From Kribbella sp. CA-293567 (GTDB taxonomy: Bacteria > Actinomycetota > Actinomycetes > Propionibacteriales > Kribbellaceae): DNA of 64,000 nt. Location of the stretch: positions 1,736,001 to 1,800,000 of the forward strand of contig NZ_CP114065.1 in NCBI RefSeq assembly GCF_027627575.1, given 5' to 3'. The notes below the pieces were generated by a model. The model had not been told where the DNA came from. It was given only the letters and a program-made list of their open reading frames with translations, and ran no database searches. Position numbers and translations under genes: made by a program. Shown here one piece after another: positions 3,648-23,313 of this stretch. The first letter of the stretch is position 1, and each line of letters begins with the position of its first letter.

Positions 3648-5398
<1,751 letters not shown>

Positions 5399-18308: not shown

Positions 18309-18389
18309 GCCCGGGTGGCGGAACGGCAGACGCAGCGAGCTTAAACCTCGCAGCCGAAAGGCATACGGGTTCGAATCCCGTCCCGGGCA
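18309..18389 (+). tRNA. tRNA-Leu, anticodon UAA (bldA-type)
   Basis: Acceptor stem GCCCGGG/CCCGGGC, anticodon stem GCGAG/CTCGC around the loop CTTAAAC, giving anticodon TAA, a variable arm GCC-GAAA-GGC, and T-arm ACGGGTTCGAATCCCGT; discriminator A at 18389, CCA not encoded. The anticodon arm equals that of Streptomyces bldA as I recall it. This tRNA decodes UUA, a rare codon here. Its 3' 50 bases are the insertion site of the cassettes that follow, and the tRNA itself is left intact. Confidence 0.95.
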
Positions 18390-18391
18390 CT

Positions 18392-18973
18392 GGTTGTCTG
18401 ACCTGCGCACTTGCCTGCGAGGCACCGGCAGCAGGAACCGACTCGACCCTTCGTGGTTGCATCAGCGGTTGCACTCGCGCCGTGTCGGCCGCGTGGTGTT
18501 CTCTCGCTGTCACAGAAATCTGGCAACTTTCTCTACGTCTTCAAGTCGGGCCTCCTCTAGGGCCTGAAAGCGCGCCGCCACCACAGGACCGGGGGAGCGG
18601 GGCGACCTCCGGCTCCTCGCCTAAGGGCTGGTCGGCCCCGTCCCCCGTTGGCTTGGCGCGCACGTGCCAAGGGTGCCGGTCGCAGACAGCAGAACTCGCC
18701 ATCAACGATCGACACCCTGTGGCGTAGCCACTCGGCAATCGGCCGGCCGCGCCGCCGTGGTCCAGGCCGGACTGCCGTCTGATCCTCAGTTACGGCATCG
18801 CCCCGCTAGCAATCATGGAAGGGACGGTGCGGCGCGGTGCGCCTCAAGGGCGCCTCCGGCGTCGCCAAGGCGATCGAGCAAGCTCGACCCCTGACCCGCA
18901 CCGCGCCCCACCTTAGGTCGGCAGCTATCGGGGCGATTGCGGGAGGGCTGGCCGCGCTCTTGACACGTAACCG
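18392..18973. repeat. Cassette left block, copy 1 (non-coding)
   Basis: Nearly the whole stretch to about 18915 recurs at 20872-21391. Copies differ by substitutions and single-base indels (for example GCGCACTTGCC against GCGCATTGCC), which would break any shared frame, so it is taken as non-coding and conserved for its sequence or structure. It contains the paired repeat at 18455-18473 and ends with the cargo-proximal element at 18916-18979. Confidence 0.7.
18455..18473 (+). repeat. Paired GGTTGCA repeat, left arm, cassette 1
   Basis: GGTTGCA-TCAGC-GGTTGCA, two direct heptamers with a 12-bp period, 63 bp after the att core. The right-end arms have the same heptamer and spacing. The layout resembles arm-type binding sites of tyrosine recombinases. 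Confidence 0.65.
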
Positions 18974-18979
18974 TCAACC
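18916..18979. repeat. Cargo-proximal element, copy 1
   Basis: Begins GGTCGGCAG and ATCGGG[G/A]CGAT, ends TTGACACGTAACCGTCAA, which can fold through TTGAC/GTCAA. It overlaps the last codons of the ApeA-like gene. Related copies follow each gene of cassette 2. It could be a minus-strand terminator or a recombination site. Confidence 0.5.
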
Positions 18980-20359
18980 GGTGGTTGCCGCTGCCTCGGC
19001 ATCGGCCAGGCTGACAATGGCGTCTACTGCAGATTGAATTTTCGGACCCAAGAATGCCATGTTCTGGTTCTGGAAGATCCGCACATATACGGCCTGGTCG
19101 ACACTCATCTCACGGAGGATGCAAAGTATGAATGCCCAATACAGGGATTCGGCAAGAAAATGTAGCTCTGGAGAAAGCGGGCGGATATGGCGACCGAGGT
19201 GATGGGCGATATCGTGACGCTCAAACTCGATTGCCTTGGCCCACTTGGTGACGTCCCCGCCAATAAGCGCTACGAATTCTGGTCCAGCAAGCTGTCCGCA
19301 CCGGCCAATGCGAGTCTTGAATGCACTGCCAGCGTAGCCAGTGAGCGCTTTGTCGAGAGCCTCCAATGCGGCGGCCCGATTCATAAGACGATCAGAGACG
19401 AACGAAGACTTCGAAAATCGCATAGCCATGACTCGGCTGAGTAGGGACCGGTATTTCGCTGCCGTATTCAACCACGCCTCTACCCCCTTGATTCCACCGA
19501 TGTCCTTATAGGAAAAGTACATGGCGTGTGACCAGAGAGGTTTCGAATCAACATCGTCTCGGACGTTCCAGCGGGCAAAGAATTCTAGGGACTTCTCGCC
19601 CAAGTCAGTATCGGCCATGCTCTTCTCGTGTACATCGCTACGTGACAGCCATACACGGCTGTACTCGGCTGTCCTCCCCGTGCCGATGGAGACGAGATCT
19701 TGGAAGTCGCTGGCAATATCGAGCAGGTCCTGTAGTTCAACGAGTGTATCGCCGCGGGCGCCAAAATTGTAGTCCTGCTGAAGAGTCCGGCTGGTAATCC
19801 CGTCGCCTTCCCAGCCGATAACGTGCGCAAGCTTTGCCTTCATGTCGTTGGCAAGGATGAAGGATTCTGCTGGCCGTTGGACGATGCGCAGAGTTTTCGA
19901 CATCTCGTCTTGAGGCTTCCCGTCCGGGTCTGCCTCAAATCCAGGCGTGTCCATCCAGTGTGCCAGGTATTTGGTGCGAATTGTGAATCCCTCAGCATCC
20001 ATCGGACCTTCACCGGCAAAATGAGCACCTTTCACCATGGAATTGGCTCGGATCACCTCTTCGCCATACATGGATGGAAATGTCGTGCTGGACTTTGCGG
20101 TGAAGCAGTCGATCAGAGTATAGGACTCCTTCCCGTTGAATCCATGCACGAAGTCGTGGTCGCCGCCGAGTGTTGATTCGGAAAGCTCGGTCACGGTCGA
20201 GCCGTCTTCCAGGACGGTTTTCTTGTGGGAAGTCAGTGTTCCGACCAACGCCAACTCGATTCCAGATTCTGGATCAAAGGTGAGCCGCCCCGCTACTGGA
20301 TCCTCTGATTTGCCTGGAAGCCACCAATTTCCATTGACTTCAAATGACTCAATTGTCAT
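18974..20359 (-). CDS. ApeA-like HEPN-domain protein (probable anti-phage abortive-infection effector)
   Basis: A 461-residue protein. ATG 20359 is chosen because GGGGGCGGA precedes it and it opens directly into the ApeA N-terminal domain: FEVNGNWWLPG, then VAGRLTFDPESGIELALVG. The C-terminal half is helical and carries RHDIAHH, an Rx4H HEPN ribonuclease motif, near residue 400. ApeA proteins are single-gene phage defences thought to cleave RNA on infection. The gene is AT-richer than the chromosome and is the sole cargo of cassette 1. Assignment rests on these motifs; no search was run. Confidence 0.7.
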   Translation of the reverse strand: MTIESFEVNGNWWLPGKSEDPVAGRLTFDPESGIELALVGTLTSHKKTVLEDGSTVTELSESTLGGDHDFVHGFNGKESYTLIDCFTAKSSTTFPSMYGEEVIRANSMVKGAHFAGEGPMDAEGFTIRTKYLAHWMDTPGFEADPDGKPQDEMSKTLRIVQRPAESFILANDMKAKLAHVIGWEGDGITSRTLQQDYNFGARGDTLVELQDLLDIASDFQDLVSIGTGRTAEYSRVWLSRSDVHEKSMADTDLGEKSLEFFARWNVRDDVDSKPLWSHAMYFSYKDIGGIKGVEAWLNTAAKYRSLLSRVMAMRFSKSSFVSDRLMNRAAALEALDKALTGYAGSAFKTRIGRCGQLAGPEFVALIGGDVTKWAKAIEFERHDIAHHLGRHIRPLSPELHFLAESLYWAFILCILREMSVDQAVYVRIFQNQNMAFLGPKIQSAVDAIVSLADAEAAATTG

Positions 20360-20462
20360 TCCGCCCCCTATGTACCCAAAGCCTGCATCGTCCTCGGTCC
20401 AGACGACGCCCCTCCGGCCTTGTGGGTATGCATGATGCCGAGAAGCGGAGCGCCTGCCTAGG

Positions 20463-20484
20463 GTCCGCGAGTATCGATGTAGTG
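20463..20484. repeat. 22-bp cassette box, copy 1
   Basis: GTCCGCGAGTATCGATGTAGTG, identical to 23074-23095. On the minus strand both copies read ADEAHYIDTRG in one frame, with weaker similarity continuing upstream, so it may be the relic of a gene carried by the ancestral element. Confidence 0.55.
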
Positions 20485-20703
20485 CGCCTCGTCGGCAACT
20501 CACCCGAAGCTGAAGTATCGGCCTGGCCTGAGTAGACCGGCCATGAGCCACTCCTCGACGGCCTGGTCTTGCTTGGCGTCGGGCCTGGCGGTCTCGGCGA
20601 TAGGTGCGGTGAGGTCACCCTCAGGACTCCTGGCCCTAGCGTTAGCCATGGGCGGAGAAGCGCCGGGAGACCGCTGGACCGCCTAACTCCCACACGCCGT
20701 TTT

Positions 20704-20722
20704 GGTTGCAATTGCGGTTGCA
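20704..20722 (+). repeat. Paired GGTTGCA repeat, right arm, cassette 1
   Basis: GGTTGCA-ATTGC-GGTTGCA. It lies 97 bp before the att core, the same distance as in cassette 2, although most of the intervening sequence differs. Confidence 0.65.
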
Positions 20723-20819
20723 GTTCGCCCTCGTTCACCCCTGGCCTGGATAGTGCTGACCAAGGTCGCCGCGACTCCTGCGAACGACCATGGACGATCG
20801 AGGATATGGTCAGGTCGAA

Positions 20820-20871
20820 CTTAAACCTCGCAGCCGAAAGGCATACGGGTTCGAATCCCGTCCCGGGCACT
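20820..20871 (+). repeat. att-like tRNA-Leu 3' fragment, copy 2
   Basis: 52 bases identical to 18340-18391, from the anticodon loop to just past the acceptor stem. The 5' half of the tRNA is replaced by GGTCAGGTCGAA, which also precedes copy 3, so this is not a functional tRNA. Confidence 0.9.
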
Positions 20872-21441
20872 AATCGTCTGACCTGCGCATTGCCTGCGAG
20901 GCACCGGCAGCAGGAACCGACTCGACCCCTCGTGGTTGCATCAGCGGTTGCACTCGCGCCGTGTCGGCCGCGTGGTGCTCTCGCGCTGTCACAGAAATCT
21001 GGCAACTTTCTCTACGTCTTCAAGACGGGCCCCTCCAGGGCCCGAAAGCGCGCCGCCACCGAAGGACCGGGGGAGCGGGGCAACCTCCGGCTCCTCGCCT
21101 AAGGGCTCGTCGACTTCGTCCCCCGTTGGCTTGGCGCGCACGTGCCAAAGGGTGCCGGTCGTAGACAGCAGAACTTGCCATCAACGATAGACACCCTCTG
21201 ATGTAGCCACTCGCCCCAATCGGCCGGCTACCCGCCGCCGTGGTCCAGGTCGCCCGCCGCCTGGTCGTGGGTTCCCGCATCGTCCCGCTAGCAATCATGG
21301 GAGGGACGGTCCGGCCCGGCCCGCGTCAAGGGCGCCTGTGGCGTCGCTCCGCGATCGAGCAAGCTCGACCCTGGACCCGCGCCGAACCTAAGGTCGGCAG
21401 CTATCGGGACGATGCCAAAAGCTTGGCCGCGCGACCTGGCA
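20872..21441. repeat. Cassette left block, copy 2 (non-coding)
   Basis: Second copy of the 18392-18915 block. Within it CGGGCCC-CTCCA-GGGCCCG forms a perfect 7-bp hairpin near 21030. It ends with a second copy of the cargo-proximal element at 21392. No conserved reading frame is seen. Confidence 0.7.
20934..20952 (+). repeat. Paired GGTTGCA repeat, left arm, cassette 2
   Basis: GGTTGCA-TCAGC-GGTTGCA, 62 bp after the att core, against 63 bp in cassette 1. Confidence 0.65.
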
Positions 21442-21996
21442 TCATGACTTGGCTACTTGTCTAACAATCAAGCCGCGGTCGTCGATGAGATGTCGATTCT
21501 TAATCCCGAGTTCAGCCTGCATCATATTCTCCACCTTTGCCATTGTGATGCCTCCTCGCTCGTGATTGGGGTCGTCAGGGTTCTCTTTCGCCAAAGCTTG
21601 GTGCAACTCTTGCGTCAGTCGATTCAACATTGCAGAGATGCCATCAGACAACTCGTGTTCGGCGAGTAACGCGGCCTCGCGTGCTGCGATTCGCAATTCA
21701 CTCATTGTAGAAGAAATCTCGTCATCGTCACCGCGTCCCTTTTTGGAGAAGATCCTAAGGTTCAGTAGGTTCTGGGTCTGGGCGGCAACCAGAAATCGTG
21801 CGTAAACCGCCCTGCGCTCCGTTGCGAGCCGCTCAGTGGTCGCATGCTCAAGAGTCGTCTGCAGCTTGAGGCGTTCGCTTTTTCGGTTCAAAGCCATCGT
21901 TGCAAGCTGTGTTAATGACGACAGCAACGCGCCGAGGATGGTGCCGGCCACCGCGATAAATGCGATCGCGTATGGATTCACAGACACGTTATTCAC
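21442..21996 (-). CDS. Small membrane-anchored helical protein, cassette 2 cargo
   Basis: 184 residues, not recognised. One N-terminal transmembrane helix (AIAFIAVAGTILGALLSSL) is followed by charged, mostly helical sequence likely to form a coiled coil and face the cytoplasm. The GTG start at 21996 is supported by GGAGGT four bases upstream. A TTA codon occurs in SSLTQL. It lies downstream of the 308-residue cargo gene in the same direction, 91 bp away, so the two probably act together. Being in the position that the ApeA-like gene occupies in cassette 1 suggests, but does not show, a defence role. Confidence 0.65.
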   Translation of the reverse strand: MNNVSVNPYAIAFIAVAGTILGALLSSLTQLATMALNRKSERLKLQTTLEHATTERLATERRAVYARFLVAAQTQNLLNLRIFSKKGRGDDDEISSTMSELRIAAREAALLAEHELSDGISAMLNRLTQELHQALAKENPDDPNHERGGITMAKVENMMQAELGIKNRHLIDDRGLIVRQVAKS

Positions 21997-22011
21997 TCAT
22001 ACCTCCGAAGG

Positions 22012-22070
22012 GGTCGGCAGGGATCGGGACGATGCGGCAGGACTGCCCGCGTTTGACACGTAACCGTCAC
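22012..22070. repeat. Cargo-proximal element, copy 3
   Basis: GGTCGGCAG, ATCGGGACGATGCGG and TTGACACGTAACCGTCA recur here between the two cargo genes, as at 18916-18979. The copy at 21392 has only the first half. Confidence 0.5.
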
Positions 22071-22087
22071 CTGGCATCAGTATCACG

Positions 22088-23014
22088 CTATGGCGACGAC
22101 TCAGAATCCTCTGAGGCCGCGTCCTCGCGTTCAAAATCGTCCAACTCGGATAGCGGCACCCCCGCCGCCTGGGCGCGGGCGACCTTATCTCTCAATGCTT
22201 CCTGTGCCTTGTAGTCTTCGAAATCTTTCGCTTGCGCAGCCAAGTAGGCATCCTCGTCGCGAACCCATACCCTTACCCCATTGAAATGCGCCGTAAATTT
22301 CTTGAGATTCTTCTCGATCTCCCGCAGTGATTTTGCCGCATGGTGGATAGTTTTAACGTCGAAATGCAGTAGCCCATAGCGGAAATTTAAATCTAAGACG
22401 TACTCCAATGCTTCTTGTTCTCGCCCCTTCGCATCCTGGGATTCTACGCGAACGCGATACGTCATCGGAAGTTCCGTCTTGAACCTCTCGTGCGACAAAT
22501 CAAACATCGCCTCGACTCGACGCCCAGGCGGCATCGCCGGGATTCCTTGCTTGATAAGAACCGAGTCCTTGAGGCGGTATTGATCTTCGGTCTGTGAACT
22601 TTCCAATGGTGGATCGAAGGTGAATCGCACACTCTTTGCCAAGGTCTTGCCGACATTCTCGATCACCAAATTTATTGCATTCATGAACACAGGACTTGGC
22701 TCGAAGTCAACGATAACGAAAGGCCGAGCAAGTTCCTCTTGTCGCCGCTCCTCCTGTTCGGCCAACTCCTTGCGTCGCTGAAACTCGAGGTCTCTTGCTG
22801 CCTGCTCTTGTGCCGCAGCCTGCTCAAGTTGATCGAACCGAGCCTTCTGAGCCTCCTCGACCTGAAGTCGAGCCTGGCGTACTTGGTCTGCCGCATAGCG
22901 AGCAGCAAAGATGGCAGCCCCTAGAGCCAGCAAGGCGGCCACCGCCTGAGCCGCGGCGCCGAGGGCGCCAACGATCCCCCATTGCTCCGCAGTCAACCAA
23001 CTGATCTTCCCCAT
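22088..23014 (-). CDS. Membrane protein with coiled coil and beta domain, cassette 2 cargo
   Basis: 308 residues from ATG 23014, chosen for the GGGGGG Shine-Dalgarno six bases upstream (GTG 23062 is an alternative). Near the N-terminus a hydrophobic helix (VAALLALGAAIFAARYAADQ) leads into a long Gln/Glu/Arg coiled coil (about residues 45-100), then a beta-rich domain beginning RPFVIVDFEPSPVF with INLVIENVGKTLAKSVRF, a pattern seen in many unassigned membrane-associated proteins. The C-terminus is acidic. TTA codons occur in YVLDLNF. No known family is assigned; a sensor or anchor for the partner at 21442 is a guess. Confidence 0.65.
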   Translation of the reverse strand: MGKISWLTAEQWGIVGALGAAAQAVAALLALGAAIFAARYAADQVRQARLQVEEAQKARFDQLEQAAAQEQAARDLEFQRRKELAEQEERRQEELARPFVIVDFEPSPVFMNAINLVIENVGKTLAKSVRFTFDPPLESSQTEDQYRLKDSVLIKQGIPAMPPGRRVEAMFDLSHERFKTELPMTYRVRVESQDAKGREQEALEYVLDLNFRYGLLHFDVKTIHHAAKSLREIEKNLKKFTAHFNGVRVWVRDEDAYLAAQAKDFEDYKAQEALRDKVARAQAAGVPLSELDDFEREDAASEDSESSP

Positions 23015-23073
23015 GAGCCCCCCAACTGAGAGTGAAGATCCGATGATCCCCACGTAGCACACAAACAGCCAGA

Positions 23074-23095
23074 GTCCGCGAGTATCGATGTAGTG
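23074..23095. repeat. 22-bp cassette box, copy 2
   Basis: Identical to 20463-20484. On the minus strand it continues as ADEAHYIDTRGLW, upstream of and in frame with the start region of the 308-residue cargo gene. Confidence 0.55.
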
Positions 23096-23146
23096 AGCTT
23101 CGTCTGCTATCCGCTCGAACGTCGAGGAATCCGCCGGTCGGCCCGT

Positions 23147-23165
23147 GGTTGCAATTGCGGTTGCA
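23147..23165 (+). repeat. Paired GGTTGCA repeat, right arm, cassette 2
   Basis: GGTTGCA-ATTGC-GGTTGCA, again 97 bp before the att copy. Confidence 0.65.
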
Positions 23166-23262
23166 GTTCGCCCCAGTCCGGCCCCGATCGGGGCGGTGCC
23201 GATCGAGCTCGCTGCGACTCAGATGAACGACTGGGAACGGTCGGGGATGGGGTCAGGTCGAA

Positions 23263-23313
23263 CTTAAACCTCGCCGCCGAAAGGCACACGGGTTCGAATC
23301 GCGTCCCGGGCAC
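23263..23313 (+). repeat. att-like tRNA-Leu 3' fragment, copy 3 (distal end)
   Basis: 51 bases with three mismatches to the tRNA 3' end. It is followed by weak similarity to the cassette left end (CTGACCTGCGCA) but lacks the GGTTGCA pair, so it marks the outer boundary of the array. Sequence from 23314 to 23424 holds no gene that I can see. Confidence 0.85.

Follow-up and report, generated by a model that had tools for sequence, protein, structure and literature searches.

A putative membrane-anchored defence protein as cargo of one of two tandem mini-elements at tRNA-Leu(TAA) in Kribbella

Cassette 2 of a tandem array behind a tRNA-Leu(TAA) gene of Kribbella sp. CA-293567 is best read as the second of two mini-elements that derive from actinomycete ICEs (AICEs), are of the cis-mobilisable type (CIMEs) and accreted at this tRNA gene. 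With a probability of about 0.5, its gene A encodes a protein that is anchored in the membrane and acts on its own against phages or mobile elements, a role that we infer, as we do each step of the mechanism set out below. Coordinates refer to the window, i.e. the whole stretch of 64,000 nucleotides that was analysed (contig NZ_CP114065.1, positions 1,736,001 to 1,800,000 of the forward strand), unless they follow a locus number.

Results

Two tandem mini-elements lie behind tRNA-Leu(TAA)

The integration site is a tRNA-Leu gene with anticodon TAA (18309-18390, plus strand; ARAGORN and Rfam tRNA). Its tRNA part matches all 38 genus genomes, and the tRNA alone reached the cut-off in an Rfam scan of the window. 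The 3' part of the gene represents att copy 1 (18340-18390, plus; repeat family D1), and two cassettes of 2.4-2.5 kb each follow in tandem, each closed by a 51-nt copy of this 3' part. Cassette 1 comprises a left arm (18391-18519, plus), a full copy of a conserved noncoding element of ~440 nt (18520-18977, plus), an ApeA-like gene as cargo (18974-20359, minus), a decayed C-terminal remnant of a 96-aa slot-boundary ORF detected by tblastn (20464-20562, minus), a right arm (20703-20819, plus) and att copy 2 (20820-20870, plus), which is identical to copy 1 at 51/51 positions. Cassette 2 repeats this order with a left arm (20871-20998, plus), the conserved element with a degraded right end (20999-21434, plus), gene B (21442-21996, minus), a 60-nt stretch that duplicates just the right end of the element (22010-22069, plus; nhmmer 1.7e-12), gene A (22088-23014, minus), a C-terminal remnant of the 96-aa ORF (23072-23140, minus; tblastn), a right arm (23146-23262, plus) and att copy 3 (23263-23313, plus; 48/51 identical to copy 1).

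Between the cassettes, 122/129 columns agree in the left arm, 367/431 in the element and 90/122 in the right arm. The word GGTTGCA occurs eight times between 18250 and 23500, always as pairs spaced 12 nt and with one pair per arm (18455/18467, 20704/20716, 20934/20946 and 23147/23159). Such pairs would suit arm-type sites of a tyrosine integrase. Shared arms and a shared element around different cargo confirm for A what a sequence-only reading had claimed for both genes, namely that they occupy the place held by the ApeA-like gene in cassette 1.

No integrase, replication or transfer genes are evident in 18391-23313, where the genes that stand out are those for the ApeA-like protein, A and B. 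In the ApeA-like protein, the N-terminal domain passed the Pfam test (PF18862, 4.4e-33) and PADLOC assigned PDC-S58 (9e-27), while the HEPN domain scored 21.4 bits against a cut-off of 24.4 (PF18739). ApeA is thus the cargo of the sister cassette, whereas neither A nor B matches ApeA (PF18862, ApeA_NTD1).

The cassettes share three hallmarks of CIMEs: att copies on both sides, lack of integrase, replication and transfer genes, and parts in common with AICEs, here those of two other Kribbella genomes (G020 and G028). The element and the arm type are common to the G020 AICE, and the element and the 96-aa ORF to the G028 AICE, which is the evidence for descent. The best match to the G020 integrase in the genome of the window is 42% identical.

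Relatives of the cassettes include AICEs and further mini-elements

Behind the tRNA, the tRNA-Leu island of G020 contains integrase (418 aa), RepSA-like (539 aa), TraB-like and GntR genes, all named by eye from translations, followed by the element, a right arm of the same type and the second att copy. In G028, a homologue of A is the only cargo of a 2.1-kb mini-element (locus L008), which carries the same 440-nt element and a remnant of the 96-aa ORF and lacks both B and an integrase. It is bounded by repeats resembling the tRNA 3' end (L008 88-134 and 2227-2274, by eye), and ARAGORN found no whole tRNA in this locus. Its arm repeats are of a different kind: on each side GTACAGCA recurs at a distance of 13 nt, and one more copy lies on the opposite strand.

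The same genome contains contig C70, which apparently represents a complete AICE: it bears at both ends the att-like repeat, resembling a tRNA 3' end, that it shares with the mini-element, and has integrase, Xis-like, RepSA-like and TraB-like genes (all from translations), its own copy of the element and a different cargo gene. C70 closes with 127 nt that recur without a mismatch at the start of C91, the contig carrying A; from this overlap, part of which lies inside the repeat, we infer that both are neighbours. The A-only mini-element of G028 is therefore probably in tandem with a full AICE, like a CIME accreted to a conjugative element.

In one further locus (L040:1397-4385, G017), a tRNA-Leu is followed by an ORF of the TM type (359 aa), the element, an ORF of 194 aa and, at 4326-4385, an att copy; this is probably another integrase-less mini-element at tRNA-Leu. 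A PurC-like (SAICAR synthetase) gene was seen by eye in or near three AICE stretches (L044:1150-1911, L049:5594-6355, L144:4719-5480).

Accretion of CIMEs is defined in PMC5704250. According to the parts of that paper used here, CIMEs and the mini-elements have in common att sites on both sides, lack of integration and transfer genes and tandem accretion at a tRNA gene. Unlike the CIMEs in those parts, the mini-elements are AICE-derived (dsDNA transfer by TraB), measure 2.1-2.5 kb with one or two cargo genes, and have kept a 440-nt noncoding element in all three cases described here. For Streptomyces AICEs, sections of PMC9513070 report accretion, decayed elements without traB, and phage-resistance and restriction cargo. 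The window agrees with these sections in having several elements per tRNA, variable cargo and decayed elements, and differs from them in the genus and in that its cargo occupies a defined slot next to a conserved element. Around diDNase genes, AICE genes as well as Shedu, SoFic and restriction systems are found, as excerpts of PMC11706625 state. Because accretion, decayed elements, defence cargo and CIMEs are already on record in the portions of the literature considered, the array belongs to a known kind. Among the open-licence papers listed for AICE cargo and defence, Kribbella with integrative elements, CIME accretion, AICEs with pSAM2 and anti-phage functions, and defence islands with integrative elements, no title or abstract deals with this slot or element. 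What has been published is AICE accretion, decay and defence cargo; the A family is without a curated-family match here.

A conserved, hairpin-rich noncoding element occurs in the mini-elements and often in AICEs

Recurrence of the element was first seen when the genus was searched with the start of a cassette. With one full copy as query, matches were obtained in 33/38 genus genomes, whole or in pieces, and a single alignment covered at least 400 of 442 positions in 22/38 (rows counted by hand). The aligned copies are sharply bordered, starting with CTGACAA and ending near TTGACACGTAACCGTCAA. In at least 10 of the 41 fetched loci (L039, L043, L045, L048, L049, L052, L053, L132, L134 and L144), AICE-type genes were recognised by eye from translations near the element, i.e. 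GntR regulators, TraB/FtsK-like and RepSA-like proteins, integrases and a conserved small AICE protein.

The element is rich in hairpins, for example at L053:3958-4399, at 18520-18977 in the window and in many other loci. Over 23 copies, pairing according to the consensus reached 96% compared to 34-46% when the structure was slid along the sequences, a contrast to be read with the structure having been derived from the same alignment; 14 of the 69 consensus pairs had changed on both sides.

The right end of the element (~60-95 nt) also occurs alone, as at 22010-22069 in the window and at L139:7416-7506, L138:7363-7446, L135:6041-6128 and L051:1241-1328. Such isolated ends possibly are recombination borders or deletion relics. 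A rough test tagged 18/51 right-end matches as right-only, but several of these, in L126, L127, L130 and L131, are long copies missing just the left motif. Stop codons near the border of the element are partly mechanical because one border frame reads stop. That the right end might act as an integron-like cassette site is an idea only. Genome G031 contains tandem copies of the element 1.3 kb apart (L051:3163-3602 and 4472-4907, minus), one of which directly adjoins a gene for a TM and coiled-coil protein.

Tentatively, and with more doubt than confidence, the mini-elements could be viewed as a lineage of minimal satellites rather than merely as decayed AICEs. They would consist of att ends with integrase arm sites, the structured 440-nt cis-element and a single swappable defence gene, and would be moved in cis or in trans by full AICEs, with each defence gene, A included, entering at the right end of the element. 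In such a satellite the 440-nt element would be a candidate transfer or replication site, e.g. clt or a single-strand origin; TraB and clt are treated in the parts of PMC3218068 consulted. A recombination site is another candidate role for the element. Provided that an AICE can mobilise them, the mini-elements would each serve as a very small carrier of one defence gene.

The cargo slot is enriched in strong matches to defence families

Cargo genes are located immediately to the right of the element. In some AICEs the slot is bounded on its far side by the 96-aa ORF (L048 and L136) or by a shorter form of 93 aa (L044). Remnants of the C-terminal part of this ORF persist in L008 as well as in the two cassettes of the window. 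The slot accordingly has the conserved boundary and the variable cargo that define a hotspot.

Strong PADLOC matches (E <= 1e-14) were obtained for 7 of 19 first-slot genes: ApeA in cassette 1 of the window, PDC-M68B/ABC-3C ATPase in L052, SduA (Shedu) in L053 and L057, SoFic in L054, RmrA in L056 and BrxL (BREX) in L125. A further gene of L054 encodes a XhoI-type restriction enzyme. At the same threshold, 1 of 133 control genes matched (none of 48 in this window and one of 85 in ten other genomes; p = 1.2e-6 by Fisher's test). The window controls were 48 of the 49 control genes taken from it, omitting one that is cut by the window edge, and the 85 outside genes came from places picked at a fixed or arbitrary distance. 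The slot genes derive from 35 copies of the element with the left-end motif present in the window and the 41 fetched loci, after setting aside two extra rows of L139 that duplicate L046; the count is confined to copies with this motif at these places. Two of the 35 copies hold A, 19 yielded the first-slot genes that were scanned with PADLOC, selected by the author after the translations had been viewed, and 14 were left unscanned because a distinct gene was missing, the ORFs were small or ambiguous, or the element adjoined a transposase or an integrase. Counting these 14 as misses gives 7/33 (p = 4.8e-5). A looser cut of E <= 1e-5, with each control model treated as a separate gene, weakens the difference to p = 0.03 for 19 genes and 0.27 for 33, so that the enrichment depends on the strong and specific matches.

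The proposal that association with the ApeA-like cassette makes A and B defence candidates thus gains more weight than could be seen from the window, as the slot elsewhere in the genus holds Shedu, BrxL, Fic, RmrA and ABC-3C. Slot position by itself is weak evidence, because 12 of the 19 slot genes have no strong defence match. The element is nevertheless a genus-wide marker of a slot already holding several defence families, and consequently the slot genes still unmatched (A and twelve others of those scanned) make up a shortlist of anti-phage candidates. Six slot cargos without any PADLOC match (E <= 0.01) or Pfam family above cut-off are further candidates (L047:2153-3427, L048:4354-5427, L049:2726-3745, L129:4845-5735, L134:5201-6103 and L136:1283-2020). 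In L045, a caspase gene and a TIR-like gene (by eye) lie on the side of the element opposite to the slot.

Rousset et al. 2022 are reported to have found defence hotspots of phages and satellites in which a variable slot rich in defence genes lies between conserved flanks. The host of the hotspot seen here is an AICE or AICE-derived mini-element instead of a phage or satellite.

Gene A encodes a protein with predicted transmembrane helix, coiled coil and Ig-like domain

Both co-oriented ORFs claimed by the sequence-only reading at 21442-23014 are present, on the minus strand. Gene A starts with ATG and encodes 308 aa (324 aa from an alternative GTG), and gene B starts with GTG and encodes 184 aa. 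Their GC contents are 55.2% and 53.3%, respectively, compared to 67.8% for the window. Judged by its conservation, A is a real gene: the homologue in G028 shares 68% identity over 306 residues, and matches are found in 39/394 genomes of the class, its own included. Gene B has a base composition of the coding type and a GGAGG ribosome-binding site; its relatives in the genus and class searches are few and weak.

Hydropathy places a TM segment in each protein (19-residue windows starting at residues 14-21 in A and 9-12 in B). The AlphaFold2 model of A, built from 12 aligned sequences (mean pLDDT 78.8, pTM 0.45), predicts a single helix from residue 9 to 95 that comprises the TM segment and the coiled coil; seven strands follow in the stretch 100-208, and further helices at the C-terminus, in agreement with the earlier description of a TM helix, a coiled coil and a beta domain. 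For B, described as TM plus helices, the hydrophobic segment was recovered, while the helical part comes from a poor model (pLDDT 55).

The predicted beta domain of A may be read as an Ig-like or adaptin-ear-like sandwich. Likeness to adaptin ears and other Ig-like sandwiches (VIA, Z <= 7.2) stays in the range of common arrangements and does not indicate function, and the fold search gave no PDB match with E <= 0.001. Neither protein reached the cut-off of any curated family searched, so that the view of both as lying outside known defence families held; for A, this includes all Pfam families. The sole PADLOC match of A is a weak one to LeoBC (E 4.5e-4), aligning residues 11-243 with positions 476-593 of the 601 in the model. 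Viral relatives of A were detected by profile or fold (phrog_9607, 2e-8; A0A8S5PHQ8, 4.5e-8). Matches to PHROGs of the lysis type (A to spanin, 0.0075; B to holin, 0.04) are weak and were attributed to TM and coiled-coil likeness. The TM-type slot cargos of L049, L129 and L134 resemble A by eye in topology alone; profile comparison did not support homology (probabilities of 6.7, 2.1 and 0.2, respectively).

Homologues of A occur in scattered genomes, in several cases near recombinases

Five residues, P98, N120, G122, A126 and P163, are invariant among 18 aligned homologues of A. Twenty of the 39 hits in the class are weak (4e-7 to 9e-4); all of these lie in genomes of one family (f6), 19 of them in one genus. 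Homologues are present in 7/72,556 plasmid records, all actinobacterial and below 60% identity, and one of the seven, at 11.85 Mb, is chromosome-sized and hardly a plasmid. B was not found in plasmid records. None of 50,697 phage records contains A, and a Streptomyces homologue as query likewise found none. With A of the window as query no relatives were retrieved from genome_contigs or viral_contigs; the alignment of the family retrieved 15 loci from the former and three from the latter.

Tyrosine recombinases are encoded near homologues in L149, L163, L189, L190 and L191 (by eye) and in L091 (annotated integrase). Neighbours of defence type, also by eye, are McrBC and type I restriction in L157, an OLD-like ATPase in L159 and a DUF262-like protein in L151. 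Matches to PADLOC models numbered 222 on 85 neighbour genes and 15 on 85 control genes, a comparison for which two of the neighbour genes had been chosen manually and in which a single restriction gene accounts for hits to many models. Models of restriction and OLD type were among those matched by the neighbours. The Streptomyces-group homologues of L152 and L153 occupy a similar chromosomal place by a YchF-like GTPase gene (by eye), which suits a resident gene.

A is proposed to be a stand-alone membrane-anchored defence protein

The mini-element has kept its att sites and arm repeats, with A as its cargo. On the preferred reading, the single TM helix would anchor the protein in the membrane. 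The long coiled coil would probably oligomerise it, and the Ig-like domain, probably cytosolic, would probably bind a component of the phage or the cell. Binding would then be converted to exclusion of the invader or to membrane damage.

An unlikely alternative is that A serves the mobile element itself, as an entry or superinfection exclusion or maintenance factor that blocks a second AICE, plasmid or phage. It would account for homologues on plasmid records, in an AICE-like setting (L150, by eye) and in the three loci of the viral collection, for their frequent position beside tyrosine recombinases and for the viral relatives phrog_9607 and A0A8S5PHQ8, and a TM-anchored protein fits a membrane barrier. 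However, the other slot cargos that could be identified are general defence genes, not exclusion genes, and A is found in just 2/38 genus genomes as opposed to 33/38 for the element.

We regard it as still less probable that A is neutral cargo without benefit, like many seemingly decaying AICE cargo genes. AICE cargo in Streptomyces is highly pseudogenised according to the consulted sections of PMC9513070, and the 96-aa ORF is reduced to a remnant in both window cassettes. Yet two species retain A as an intact gene, with proteins that are 68% identical, which suggests that the protein is under selection.

B is probably not a required partner of A

The sequence-only reading had proposed a two-gene system and named missing co-occurrence as an observation that would speak against it; among the 393 other genomes of the class, A is present in 38, B in four and both in none. 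Likewise in the genus, the other genome with A (G028) lacks B, and the other genome with B, a weak match (G030), lacks A. A TM protein near the A homologue of L150 looked B-like by eye, which a comparison did not confirm: the alignment with B is confined to 15 residues in the TM helix (E 0.032). A genuine pair, for which co-orientation, the spacing of 91 nt, and one TM segment and helical parts in each protein might speak, is very improbable given this lack of co-occurrence, the mini-element of G028 with A as sole cargo, and the relic of the element's right end that occupies the gap between the genes. Because this right-end copy (22010-22069) separates B from A, B seems to have been inserted later, at that end of the element. 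On the reading of A as a stand-alone defence protein, B was probably a subsequent addition, placed where the right end of the 440-nt element had been duplicated.
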